Origin: Candidatus Brocadia sp.
GTDB taxonomy: Bacteria > Planctomycetota > Brocadiia > Brocadiales > Brocadiaceae
DNA: 64,000 nt
Direction: 5' to 3'
NCBI GenBank assembly: GCA_011525665.1
Contig: WYAU01000097.1
Span: 1 to 64,000 of the forward strand
A program made the position numbers and the translations under genes. Shown piece after piece: positions 697 through 21,557 of the stretch (position 1 is its first letter; each line of letters opens with the position of its first letter). The notes under the pieces were generated by a model, which did no database searches, was not told the DNA's origin, and worked only from the letters and a program-made list of their open reading frames with translations.

Positions 697-825
697 TTAC
701 TTCCATAGTAATTTTTCTATCTCATAAAATTCCAGTTTCTTTAATGTCTCTATTTCTCCTGCCCACCTGATATACTCAAAATCATCCCCTACTTCTCCAA
801 ATACATATTTTTGTGTGAGTTTTTT
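697..825 (-). pseudogene. C-terminal gene remnant, family unknown
   Basis: Forty-two codons without a start end at TAA (699-697). They have protein-like composition with charged and aromatic residues (for example KYVFGEVGDDFEYIRWAGE, then LEFYEIEKLLWK). I do not recognise the family. The frame runs straight into a palindromic repeat on its 5' side, and another open stretch continues beyond the repeat in a different frame. That suggests a gene broken by insertion of the repeat. Confidence 0.35.
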
Positions 826-15259: not shown

Positions 15260-16621
15260 ATGGAAATTCATTGGTTAATTGTCGCACTGGTTACCGGGGG
15301 TTTTGTGGGGACCGCTGTCACCTGGCTGCTCTGCAGGACACGCATTGCAGCACTCAACGAACGATGTAGTGCAACTCTGCAGGATCTGGAAACTGCACGG
15401 GCTGACCTTTGCCTGAAGAGCGAAACAATTTCTCATCTCAATCAGGTAATCGTGCGGCTGGAGACCACACTTGAACACGAGCGTAAGGCAGCTTATGAAA
15501 AACTGGACATCCTTAATCATGCTACACTGAAGCTGGGCGACGCCTTTAAGGCACTCTCATCAGAAGCGCTGAGAAGTAATAACCAATCCTTCCTGGAACT
15601 GGCAAAAATTACCCTGGAAAAATACCAAACCGAGGCAAAGGGAGATCTCGAACAGAGGCAGAAGGCTGTTGAACAACTCGTTACGCCCATCAAGCAGTCC
15701 TTGGAGAAGGTAGACACCCAGATCCAGGAATTGGAAAAAACACGCCAGCAGGCGTACGGAAGCCTGACCGAACAGGTCAAGTCCCTTATTTATACACAGG
15801 AGAAGTTACAGTCCGAGACAGGCAATCTGGTCAAGGCCCTCCGGACACCGACGGTGCGAGGTCACTGGGGAGAAATACAGCTCAAGCGGGTAGTCGAGAT
15901 CGCCGGCATGCTGGAATATTGCGATTTCCACCGGCAGCAAACGGTAACTACAGAGGATGGCCGGTTGCGTCCCGATATGCTCGTACGGCTGCCCGGGGGC
16001 AAAAATATTGTGATTGACGCAAAGGCACCGCTTTTGGCGTATCTCGATGCCTTAGAATCCGCAAACGATGAACAGCGTTTGTCAAAACTCAGGAGCCATG
16101 CACAACAGATCCGGTCTCACATGACAAGACTGAGCGCAAAATCCTATTGGGATCAATTCCAGCCTACACCGGAATTTGTTGTCCTTTTTCTTCCCGGCGA
16201 GATGTTTTTCAGTGCAGCCCTCGAGTTGGATCCCGCACTGATTGAAGAGGGCGCTAAACAGCAGGTCATCCTGGCGACACCAACGACCCTGATCGCTCTC
16301 CTGCGCGCTGTGTATTATGGCTGGCGGCAGGAACAGATGTCAGAGAACACCAGAAAAATCAGTGAGCTTGGGCAGGAACTCCACGAACGTGTCGCCACCA
16401 TGGTTGAACATCTTGCGAGACTCGGTGGCTCTCTTGGAAAGGCAGTAGAGGCATTCAACTCCGCTGTAGCATCCTTCGAAGGTCGCGTACTCCCCTCCGT
16501 ACGAAAGTTTGAAACCCTGGGGGCCGGAAGCAAAAAGGAGATTGAGGAACTTACTCCACTCGATAAAAGTACCAGGGTGCTTATGGAAATCCAGGGTGAA
16601 CATGACACAAGAATTTGCTAA
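15260..16621 (+). CDS. rmuC: DNA recombination protein RmuC homologue
   Basis: RmuC-family proteins limit DNA inversions and are thought to act as nucleases at structured DNA; the activity is inferred from the PD-(D/E)XK-like fold. An N-terminal membrane helix (WLIVALVTGGFVGTAVTWLL) is followed by a long coiled coil (about residues 25-180). The RmuC domain contains VRGHWGEIQLKRVVEIAGM, DMLVRLPGGKNIVIDAKAPL and EFVVLFLPGEMFFSAALE. The 453 residues are normal. It starts six bases after glmS. Confidence 0.92.
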   Translation: MEIHWLIVALVTGGFVGTAVTWLLCRTRIAALNERCSATLQDLETARADLCLKSETISHLNQVIVRLETTLEHERKAAYEKLDILNHATLKLGDAFKALSSEALRSNNQSFLELAKITLEKYQTEAKGDLEQRQKAVEQLVTPIKQSLEKVDTQIQELEKTRQQAYGSLTEQVKSLIYTQEKLQSETGNLVKALRTPTVRGHWGEIQLKRVVEIAGMLEYCDFHRQQTVTTEDGRLRPDMLVRLPGGKNIVIDAKAPLLAYLDALESANDEQRLSKLRSHAQQIRSHMTRLSAKSYWDQFQPTPEFVVLFLPGEMFFSAALELDPALIEEGAKQQVILATPTTLIALLRAVYYGWRQEQMSENTRKISELGQELHERVATMVEHLARLGGSLGKAVEAFNSAVASFEGRVLPSVRKFETLGAGSKKEIEELTPLDKSTRVLMEIQGEHDTRIC

Positions 16622-16693
16622 AACACCGATTCCCGGGCAACCTGGAACGATTCGCCCCCCCCGTTCTTTCCCTAGAAAAAAAACCAAAAAAGC

Positions 16694-16723
16694 TTGCATT
16701 CTTCTTCGTTTTTGTATTATCAT
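16694..16723 (+). promoter_or_regulatory. Candidate promoter of the RelBE module
   Basis: TTGCAT at 16694-16699, an 18-base spacer and TATCAT at 16718-16723, about 80 bases before the antitoxin start. Type II antitoxins usually repress such promoters; I see no clear operator palindrome. Confidence 0.4.
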
Positions 16724-16802
16724 CTATTTTAAAGTAAAAGTAATTTCCTATCAAATGTTATATGATAAAATAAATGAAATAATCGGAAATCAGGAGGCTT
16801 TT

Positions 16803-17012
16803 ATGTTGGAGCTTCACAAAAAAATAGTAATTGATGAAAACAGTAAGCCGGTTGCTGTTCAGATACCGATTGAGGAATTTGATCGTTTGGAGGAGATAAT
16901 AGAAAATTACGGATTATCAAAATTAATGGACGAGGTAAAAAGTGATGAGCGAGTTACCTTTGAAGATGCAAAAAAATATTATCAATCATTGAAACAGAAT
17001 GTGGAAAGTTGA
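16803..17012 (+). CDS. RelB/Phd-type antitoxin
   Basis: This is a 69-residue protein beginning MLELHKKIVIDENSKPVAVQ, with PIEEFDRLEEIIENYG and an acidic helical tail. This is the style of antitoxins that pair with RelE/ParE toxins: an N-terminal DNA-binding region and a C-terminal toxin-binding helix. The ATG at 16803 follows AGGAGG (16792-16797). The same frame is open far upstream into rmuC, but that is not coding. It overlaps the toxin gene by 14 bases, as expected for coupled expression. Confidence 0.82.
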   Translation: MLELHKKIVIDENSKPVAVQIPIEEFDRLEEIIENYGLSKLMDEVKSDERVTFEDAKKYYQSLKQNVES

Positions 17013-17271
17013 ATATACAAAACGTTTTCTTAAAGAACTCGTCAAGTTATCCAAGGAAATACAAACTAAGGCTGAGGAAATAGTTTTTAATGAACTACCT
17101 TCTTCCAATCCTTTTGAACGCGGATATGTTGAACGAATGACAGGTTATCCGGATAAATATAAAATCCGCGTGGGAAATTATAGGATAGGCATCACAATAG
17201 ATAAAGATAAACAGGTTATTGCTTGTCAACGTATTGCACATCGTAAAGATATCTACAAAGTATTTCCGTAG
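16999..17271 (+). CDS. RelE/ParE-family toxin
   Basis: This is a 90-residue basic protein starting MWKVEYTKRFLKELVKLSKE, with YPDKYKIRVGNYRIGITID and ending in RIAHRKDIYKVFP. That pattern, with an arginine-rich 'R.GNYRI' strand and the C-terminal 'HR...Y', is characteristic of RelE mRNA interferases that act at the ribosome. The partner antitoxin overlaps its 5' end. Five bases after its stop begins an attC-like site, so the pair looks like an integron cassette. Confidence 0.88.
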   Translation: MWKVEYTKRFLKELVKLSKEIQTKAEEIVFNELPSSNPFERGYVERMTGYPDKYKIRVGNYRIGITIDKDKQVIACQRIAHRKDIYKVFP

Positions 17272-17276
17272 GCTTT

Positions 17277-17336
17277 ACATAACAATTAAATCCAGCCGGT
17301 TGCAAAAAACGCGACGGCTGATTTTCATCGTTATGC
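17277..17336 (+). other. Integron attC-like recombination site
   Basis: This is a 60-base imperfect palindrome. The outer arms ACATAAC (17277-17283) and GTTATGC (17330-17336) match the RYYYAAC/GTTRRRY cores with one deviation. The inner arms CAGCCG and CGGCTG enclose a short variable loop. Aligning the two 21-base arms gives about 17 matches, with the off-register mismatches typical of attC. It starts five bases after a cassette-sized toxin-antitoxin unit and precedes another gene in the same orientation. No integrase gene or second attC is visible in the window. Confidence 0.55.
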
Positions 17337-17352
17337 TTGCATAATCTTGGGG

Positions 17353-17938
17353 ATGCCCATGCACGAGTATGACAAAAAAGACCTGAAAGATTCGATCATC
17401 GCCGAAAATACGGCAATTAGCTAAGAGCTTAGGACATACTCCCACTATTGTTGAGTGGCAACGGCAAAGCACAAAGCATGGCGCTGATTGCGTTCTAAAT
17501 CAATTTGGTACGTGGAACAATGCAGTTGAAGCGGCAGGTCTTCTTCCAAATCCTACTAAGAAGTCTCCTCGAAATGATATCCCAAAGCAAGAGATTATTT
17601 CGGAGCTAATTCGGGTAGCAAACAAACTGGGTCGATTTCCGTCTCGTCCTGTTTTCAGTGCTCATGCCCAAATATCAAGGGGTCCTGTAGAGCGCTGTTT
17701 CGGTTCATGGGTAAAAGCAAAACAATATATTTTATTGCATCACTCGTCAGATCTCACTTTTAAACAAGAATTCAAGAATAGAAAAGATATTACACAAACC
17801 AAACGAAATCGAAAGAAGCTAAGAATAAATCTACCACTTATCTATATTCCCACCAATGAGCAGGAGACATTGGTATTATTCTCATTGTTAGCTGAGAAAC
17901 TTAGAATGCAAATTGTACAAGTTCAATCAGCAAGGTAG
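17353..17938 (+). pseudogene. HNH/homing-endonuclease-associated repeat protein, frameshifted
   Basis: From ATG 17353 (or 17359) the frame reads MHEYDKKDLKDSIIAE and then meets a stop. One base must be skipped in the A4 run at 17405-17408 to continue into IRQLAKSLGHTPTIVEW and an open frame to the TAG at 17938. Two repeats of about 45 residues are seen (LGHTPTIVEW...FGTWNNAVEAAGL and LGRFPSRPVF...FGSWVKAKQY). This matches the homing-endonuclease-associated repeat (HNH_repeat) that binds DNA in selfish genes. No HNH motif remains. The C-terminal third (NLPLIYIPTNEQETLVLFSL) is a separate domain I do not recognise. The one-base insertion could also be a sequencing error. Confidence 0.6.
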
Positions 17939-18139
17939 GGTAGGCACCGCCTACCAAAAAATTGAGCAATCGGGGTGGATTCTGCATGAAGGACATGCCT
18001 CGTGAAAACGGGAAATGGATCGAAATGGTTTTGACGAATGATCGGTAATTGGGGTGGTGTGTGTATGGCATCTGCGTTAAATATTCGGGTGCCTGCTGCT
18101 TTGGAACCGCGGGGTTGATTATGGTGGGCAATGCCCACC
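17939..18139. repeat. REP-type hairpins flanking the transposase gene
   Basis: GGTAGGC/GCCTACC (17939-17955) and GGTGGGCA/TGCCCACC (18123-18139) are tight hairpins. Non-coding sequence between them leads to the REP-associated transposase. A sister of the second hairpin occurs at 25596-25610. This fits REP sequences mobilised by the adjacent RayT enzyme. Confidence 0.55.
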
Positions 18140-18175
18140 CTATCATAAAAATGCGCGAATAGAAAATGGACACGT

Positions 18176-18736
18176 ATGTCAAATTATCGAAGGATACGGA
18201 TACCGGGCATAACTTATTTCTTTACGGTGGTCACCTACAAACGGCGAGAAATCCTGGTGATTCCGAAGAGCAGGCAAATTCTCCGTGCCGTAATTAATGA
18301 GGTGCGGCAATTACGTCCATTACGTCCATTTACGATTTGTGGATGGGTGCTGCTGCCTGATCATATCCATTGTATATGGACTCTTCCGGAAAACGACGGC
18401 GATTATTCCAAACGCTGGGGCATGATTAAGTCAGGATTTTCAAAAAGGGCTAAAAGCCTGTTTCATCGTAACGAATGGATGACCGATTCAAAACGGAAAT
18501 ACCGCGAAGCAACGATCTGGCAAAGGCGTTTTTGGGAACATATGATTCGTGATGAAGATGATTTCAGAAAACATATGGATTATCTCCATTTTAACCCGGT
18601 AAAGCATGGATTGGTAAAACGTGTGAAGGACTGGCCGTATTCGACGTTTCACCGGTTTGTGAGAAATGGGTTTTATCCTCCAGAATGGGGTGGAGATGAA
18701 ATGGGTGAGATAACCGATGCAGATTTTGGTGAATAA
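18176..18736 (+). CDS. REP-associated tyrosine transposase (IS200-like, RayT)
   Basis: This is a Y1 HUH transposase that nicks and moves single-stranded REP DNA. It starts MSNYRRIRIPGITYFFTVVT. The HUH motif is PDHIHCIW around residue 63, and the catalytic tyrosine is in MDYLHFNPVKHGLV. Those features and the 186-residue length match the TnpA-REP subfamily rather than full IS200/IS605 elements. It stands alone, with no TnpB, and is bordered on the left by REP hairpins. Confidence 0.9.
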   Translation: MSNYRRIRIPGITYFFTVVTYKRREILVIPKSRQILRAVINEVRQLRPLRPFTICGWVLLPDHIHCIWTLPENDGDYSKRWGMIKSGFSKRAKSLFHRNEWMTDSKRKYREATIWQRRFWEHMIRDEDDFRKHMDYLHFNPVKHGLVKRVKDWPYSTFHRFVRNGFYPPEWGGDEMGEITDADFGE

Positions 18737-18893
18737 TATTTTGGCAGGGCAATGTCATCCCTACCTGGCTGAATTAGATCTCATTGTAAATGGTGCCACC
18801 AGAATGAATGGAAATACAGATATTCTTGTCGGAAAAATTATTGGCGGTGCTAAAAACAAATTTAAAGGACTTATAGAAAGGGGTAGAGCAGAT

Positions 18894-19094
18894 ATGTCAA
18901 AAGTAGAGGAAATCGAGGCAGTAATTGAATCTCTCTCAGAAGAGGAATACGCTCGCCTTAGAAAGTGGTTTTCTGAAAAGGATTGGGAGAAATGGGATAG
19001 ACAGATTGAAGTCGATTCAGAGGCAGGAAAACTGGATTTTCTGATCAGGGAAGCCCTTGAAGAAAAAGCTAAGGGAAAGCTCAAGGAACTTTAG
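18894..19094 (+). CDS. Putative antitoxin of a type II toxin-antitoxin pair
   Basis: This is a 66-residue acidic helical protein (MSKVEEIEAVIESLSEEEYA...). It ends in FLIREALEEKAKGKLKEL, a style seen in antitoxins that pair with small RelE-like toxins in cyanobacteria and planctomycetes. The frame is open 59 codons further upstream, but those residues look non-coding and include REP-like sequence, so I chose the ATG at 18894. The stop TAG is directly followed by the ATG of the next gene. Confidence 0.72.
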   Translation: MSKVEEIEAVIESLSEEEYARLRKWFSEKDWEKWDRQIEVDSEAGKLDFLIREALEEKAKGKLKEL

Positions 19095-19355
19095 ATGCAT
19101 CGGACAACAGCCCGTTTCTGGAAATGCTTTGAGAACCTTCCAGAACCTGTTAAAAAAATATCGAAAAAGAACTTCGATCTGCTTAAAATTAATCCTTCAC
19201 ATCCGGCCCTTCGTTTTAAAAAAGTTGGTAAGTTTTGGTCAGTACAGGCTGGAACGAATCACAGAGCACTCGCAGTTGAAGATGGTAATGATTTCATTTG
19301 GGTATGGATTGGCACTCATGATGAGTATGAAAGAATGATTAAAGAGGGGGGCTAA
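19095..19355 (+). CDS. RelE/ParE-like toxin
   Basis: This 86-residue basic protein contains MHRTTARFWKCFENLPEPVKK, then HPALRFKKVGKFWSVQAGTNHRAL, with GNDFIWVWIGTHDEYERMI near the end. The 'HP.L.FK....FWSVR...NYRAL' and 'W.WIG.H.EYD..I' pattern is typical of a RelE subfamily of mRNA-cleaving toxins. Its ATG abuts the stop of the putative antitoxin. Base composition and location mark it as part of the accessory island. Confidence 0.82.
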   Translation: MHRTTARFWKCFENLPEPVKKISKKNFDLLKINPSHPALRFKKVGKFWSVQAGTNHRALAVEDGNDFIWVWIGTHDEYERMIKEGG

Positions 19356-21382: not shown

Positions 21383-21435
21383 GTTCCTAAACTCCGTTTG
21401 GGAACACCAGGTTACCATGAAACTCTGTTTCATGG
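21383..21435. repeat. Two hairpins between the activator and methyltransferase genes
   Basis: GTTCC..GGAAC (21383-21405) and a perfect CCATGAAAC/GTTTCATGG (21415-21435) lie in the 239-base gap. The sequence 'gagtttgggaacgag' near 21483 repeats part of the first. They interrupt the operon and might process or stabilise mRNA. Confidence 0.5.
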
Positions 21436-21557
21436 ATGTCTGCTTAACTACCAGAAATTTTACCGATTGATTTTTCGAAACAGAGTTTGGGAACGAGCAG
21501 GGTAAACTTTCAAATCAAACATCAAGTAGTTGCCATTTTAAGAGTCTGAAACGCAGG

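Follow-up and report, generated by a model that had tools for sequence, protein, structure and literature searches.

Sites of the attC type that occur without an integrase are classed by IntegronFinder as SALIN when single and as CALIN when clustered (PMC9024848, PMC12690207). The chromosomal integrons of Treponema have an intI that points to attI and shares its orientation with the cassettes; this gene clusters with the intI of Kuenenia (PMC3607928). Toxin-antitoxin cassettes, such as the two-gene cassettes closed by an attC in Vibrio chromosomal integrons, can punish the loss of cassettes, and inactivation of intI provides an escape from too much excision (PMC11023631).

The window analysed here, a 64-kb stretch of Candidatus Brocadia DNA, contains a single strong attC behind a relBE gene pair, with no integrase nearby. 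The site belongs to a known kind, namely SALIN or decayed integron. In common with SALIN and CALIN elements, it comprises one attC and its cassette with no integrase beside them, but it differs in that remains of the platform (the 5' flank of intI) are still recognisable upstream, which makes its origin traceable. Like the Vibrio toxin-antitoxin cassettes, the unit consists of two genes closed by an attC; here, however, it is a single stranded-off cassette without an array and of predicted function.

The attC covers 60 nt on the + strand (17277-17336) and was assigned on the basis of a covariance model score of 43.6 bits and its class 1 attC register. It is composed of R'' (ACATAAC, 17277-17283), a 5-nt spacer (AATTA), L'' (AATCCAGC, 17289-17296), a variable stem/loop of 20 nt (17297-17316), L' (GCTGATT, 17317-17323), a 6-nt spacer (TTCATC) and R' (GTTATGC, 17330-17336). 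R'' and R' are complementary, with 6 of 7 positions paired, and L'' carries one extra base relative to L' (a top-strand C). The integrase IntI acts on the folded bottom strand and cleaves at G|TT; the cut expected in R' is G17330|T17331. Comparison with class 1 attCs taken from plasmids as controls (aadB, catB8, aadA1) revealed the same length of 60 nt, the same spacers of 5 and 6 nt, the extra L'' base and boxes in register. In contrast to these, the Brocadia site is AT-richer and its R'' deviates from RYYYAAC at position 3.

The covariance model was trained on eight class 1 attCs and two anammox attCs, with the site under study left out. Its score of 43.6 bits on the + strand corresponds to E-values of 1.1e-9 for the 64-kb window and 6e-8 for the 3.6-Mb genome, compared to 20.8 bits for the opposite strand. 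As rough negative controls, genomes of the order's family f3 returned 0 or 1 match each. DNA folding predicted a more stable bottom strand (-12.7 kcal/mol) than top strand (-10.9 kcal/mol), and only 1-2 of 200 shuffled sequences folded equally well. Across 55 distinct anammox attC-like sites, the box pairs showed covariation, with 150 double-changed cells versus 53 +/- 7 after shuffling, a result to be taken with caution because the alignment was itself fitted to the covariance model. An Rfam search of the site at gathering and relaxed thresholds gave no match. From the model score, the predicted fold and the box structure, we regard the palindrome as a true attC with a predicted function in recombination.

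The preliminary description had recognised attC core sites, inner arms and off-register mismatches in this palindrome, starting five bases after the toxin stop codon (TAG, 17269-17271); all of these features are present as it stated, and the covariance model check it proposed, with a model built here, gave a score far above chance, so that the case is stronger than that description had assumed. It had also held that a low score, together with no other attC or integrase, would speak against the site, and the attC is not refuted on that test. The model detected no second attC downstream of the site within the window. A match of a rule-based scan at 21386-21491 was judged to be due to chance, as the covariance model gives no match there. 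On the - strand, 171-259 gives a weak attC-like match of 18.7 bits in which R' has decayed (ATTAGTT); this is possibly a dead attC by the left end of the window.

The two genes in front of the attC show a RelBE-type arrangement, with a RelB-like antitoxin of 69 aa (16803-17012, +; PF18506, 93.9 bits, cut-off 27) followed by a toxin of the RelE/ParE fold of 90 aa (16999-17271, +; PF05016, 34.9 bits, cut-off 23). The toxin scored under the cut-off of TIGR02385. Both genes are under purifying selection, because dN/dS against homologs was 0.07-0.31 (with some dS values saturated); toxicity is a prediction.

The complete unit (16758-17330, +, 573 nt) runs from the TT behind a core-site G through to its own attC. 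Its left edge is marked by a GTTATAT core (16757-16763, +) with the cut point G16757|T16758, and homologous copies in G018 (90% identity), G035 (87.6% over 572 nt) and G034 (73%) start at T16758 or the preceding G. In G035 and G034, the R' of a preceding attC starts with this edge G. The matching unit in G035 is part of an attC array on the same contig as an intact intI (563817-564758), and the attC series points away from intI. The attC that belongs to the G035 copy has retained its left part and its L boxes but has a decayed R', and relE of this copy is in two pieces. We therefore read 16758-17330 as an integron cassette and not just a gene pair plus a hairpin, and the homology to G035, G034 and G018 is the strongest evidence for this. 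The shared left edge at the IntI cut point also bears out the earlier proposal that the toxin-antitoxin pair is a cassette.

Close relatives of the toxin occur in several phyla. In the Firmicute Peptococcaceae bacterium SCADC1_2_3 (L174 3757-4336), a relBE pair of 77% identity is followed right after the toxin stop by an attC of 41.6 bits and has GTTAGGT at its left edge. Because both marks of a cassette are found there, the relBE cassette appears to have crossed phyla. Several other relatives, read by eye, have the left half of an attC only.

Upstream of the cassette lies an rmuC-like gene (15260-16621, +), so called from our reading of the protein rather than from a family search. It matches nine relatives (G014, G015 and G017-G023) at the DNA level over the whole gene with 80-87% identity and anchors an orthologous locus in them. 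Between this gene and the cassette we found a repeat that is dispersed in the genus, the 5' flank of an integron integrase gene (16598-16757, +), which on its left side reaches into the 3' end of rmuC. Positions 16598-16753 show 80-83% identity both to the DNA that immediately precedes intI in G020 and G021 and to copies elsewhere from which intI has been deleted; other copies run into a truncated intI or merely into the last intI codons. An interpretation of 16598-16753 as attI was ruled out, since the alignment identifies it as the 5' flank, with attI 3' of intI and homology ending at G|TT.

On the 3' side of intI, the platform copies share about 170 bp ending in TATAATCATTG|TT. Homology stops there among the ten copies compared, which include two pairs with common downstream DNA (L099/L100 by duplication, L103/L114 by orthology). 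Because homology between copies stops at this point, the alignment places attI 3' of intI, with cassettes in the same direction. This agrees with the Treponema integrons in both respects; the Brocadiaceae differ from these in that several copies of the attI unit are present and many of them have lost intI by deletion. We discarded the notion of the entire platform being a cassette in its own right, as the left ends of the copies differ and lack an attC edge, and three copies stand behind coding DNA resembling the end of argS. These three are L104 (contig C32 of the genome under study), L101 (G017) and L108 (G021); the L104 copy is joined to a cassette tail with an attC of 43.9 bits.

Remnants of the platform at the rmuC locus vary among the relatives. 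G017 has kept the last IntI codons, G021 has intI 3'-flank DNA in common, and in G023 a 40-nt piece of attI precedes an attC scoring 31.1 bits; no platform was seen at this locus in G018, G015, G014 and G020. The window itself contains no attI match, and only the G|TT edge is left. Immediately before the cut, the sequence TATCAAATG bears no more than a loose resemblance to attI (ATAATCATTG). Neither intI nor attI lies between the 5' flank and the cassette, so that the deletion is not directly seen.

To the right of the attC lies a frameshifted gene (17360-17938, +), whose translation looks to the eye like homing-endonuclease-associated repeats. Among the loci compared it has no homolog, and it may be left over from a following cassette or from the former flank. 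A REP-associated tyrosine transposase with a flanking repeat lies at 17917-18772 (NF047646, 194.7 bits), and similar copies of it occur on contig C93 of the same genome and genus-wide. A second small gene pair at 18717-19352, whose second gene has a sub-threshold ParE-like match, is perhaps another toxin-antitoxin pair.

In our view, the relBE cassette and its attC are probably the relic of a sedentary chromosomal integron downstream of rmuC that has lost intI and nearly all of attI. The platform would have had an intI reading towards attI and the cassettes. An integron integrase would have inserted the relBE cassette by site-specific recombination, in which the folded bottom strand of the attC recombined at G|TT with attI or with another attC. 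A later deletion of intI and nearly all of attI would then have joined the intI 5' flank to the cassette at its G|TT edge, and the loss of intI would have fixed the cassette at this locus. The toxin-antitoxin pair may have been retained intact because its loss is punished (addiction). We infer the order of these events, that a deletion produced the present junction and that addiction explains why the pair was kept; the anatomy and score of the attC, the cassette edges, the occurrence of the cassette in an array that has an integrase, the intI 5' flank and the locus remnants in relatives can be read from the DNA.

Alternatively, a true attC and cassette could have gone straight into a non-classical genomic site (attG) that by chance lay within the old intI flank, through an integrase supplied in trans, without ever having been part of an array here. 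Insertion at attG has been described (Loot et al. 2024, cited in PMC12690207, PMC11023631). The cassette junction at GTT would fit it, and most attCs in these genomes are single, which is compatible with direct insertion. However, it needs a chance strike on the integron's own flank, G023 has both attI and an attC at the same rmuC locus, and the intI flank does not resume on the right side of the attC. We consider this route unlikely. An ordinary inverted repeat behind a toxin-antitoxin operon, either a transcription terminator or a REP-like element, would account for a hairpin-capable palindrome just behind a stop codon, but is scarcely credible: it is already contradicted by the model score (E 6e-8 genome-wide) and by homologous arrays in which the cassette edges are attC edges, the invariant AAC/GTT cores and off-register L boxes fit an attC, and the terminator reading is rejected by the absence of a T-run after the stem.

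The relic of a chromosomal integron proposed here is not the only trace of such elements in the genome. The preliminary description spoke of a lone attC, which holds for the window but not for the genome, where we found nine attC matches (E<=0.01) on seven contigs. It further suggested a search for intI and more attCs: attCs were recovered in this genome and its relatives, but intI in this genome is represented by remnants only. Its proposal of past integron activity is supported and can now be located, as the locus itself retains platform remains immediately upstream. In this draft of 111 contigs, from which an intact intI could be missing, no intI scored above the curated cut-off; the best IntI match, on C93, was a C-terminal fragment that has decayed. 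On C64, two full-length tyrosine recombinases were rejected as IntI, as they resemble XerC/XerD by eye. The window cassette has no intact intI beside it and no attI adjoining a first cassette, as a complete integron would. Contig C93 (L011 341-633 (-), about 720-810 (+)) carries the remnant of a second IntI type, divergent from an attI-like edge (..AAATTAATG|TT) that is followed by an ankyrin-like ORF. An edge similar to it (..AGTAAATG|TT) precedes a relBE cassette in G039 (L152).

Within the order, intI above the curated cut-off was present in 26 of 62 genomes and attC matches in 51 of 62. In eight genomes that we examined, attCs were mostly singles; G015, assembled as a single contig, has 14 attC sites at 14 separate places. 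Between one and seven attI copies are present in each of these eight, a few being short matches. Of the 30 copies in total, six are followed on the same strand by an attC no more than 3 kb downstream, compared to 0.165 expected, and none has an attC upstream or on the opposite strand. With other IntI types in the order, attCs lie on the upstream side, which is the usual divergent arrangement. The recently duplicated platform of G020 consists of two 4-kb copies with 97.8% identity (L099 2443-6426 and L100 1-4028), each with the intI 5' flank, an intI with an internal deletion, and attI.

The combination of several dispersed attI copies, many of them without their intI, and mostly single attCs looks unusual, and our literature search on multiple or dispersed attI copies, within its limited coverage, turned up just one general paper. 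Tentatively, and on balance doubtfully, the Brocadiaceae may possess a distributed integron, in which one integrase serves many scattered attI docking sites that spread over the chromosome by copying and mostly lost their intI, cassettes are stored singly at many loci rather than in one array, and the window is one outpost. G033 agrees with this at the sequence level: it has an intact intI with its own attI and six more attI copies elsewhere, two of which are followed by attCs.

The hairpin behind a toxin-antitoxin pair in an anammox genome proves to mark a real integron cassette, and, taken as a relic, the locus would record stages in the decay of a chromosomal integron, with intI lost, attI trimmed and one toxin-antitoxin cassette remaining. 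The dispersed attI platforms are the part most deserving of specialist attention, as dispersed attI and mostly single attCs in the Brocadiaceae appear to depart from the usual picture of one platform and one array.
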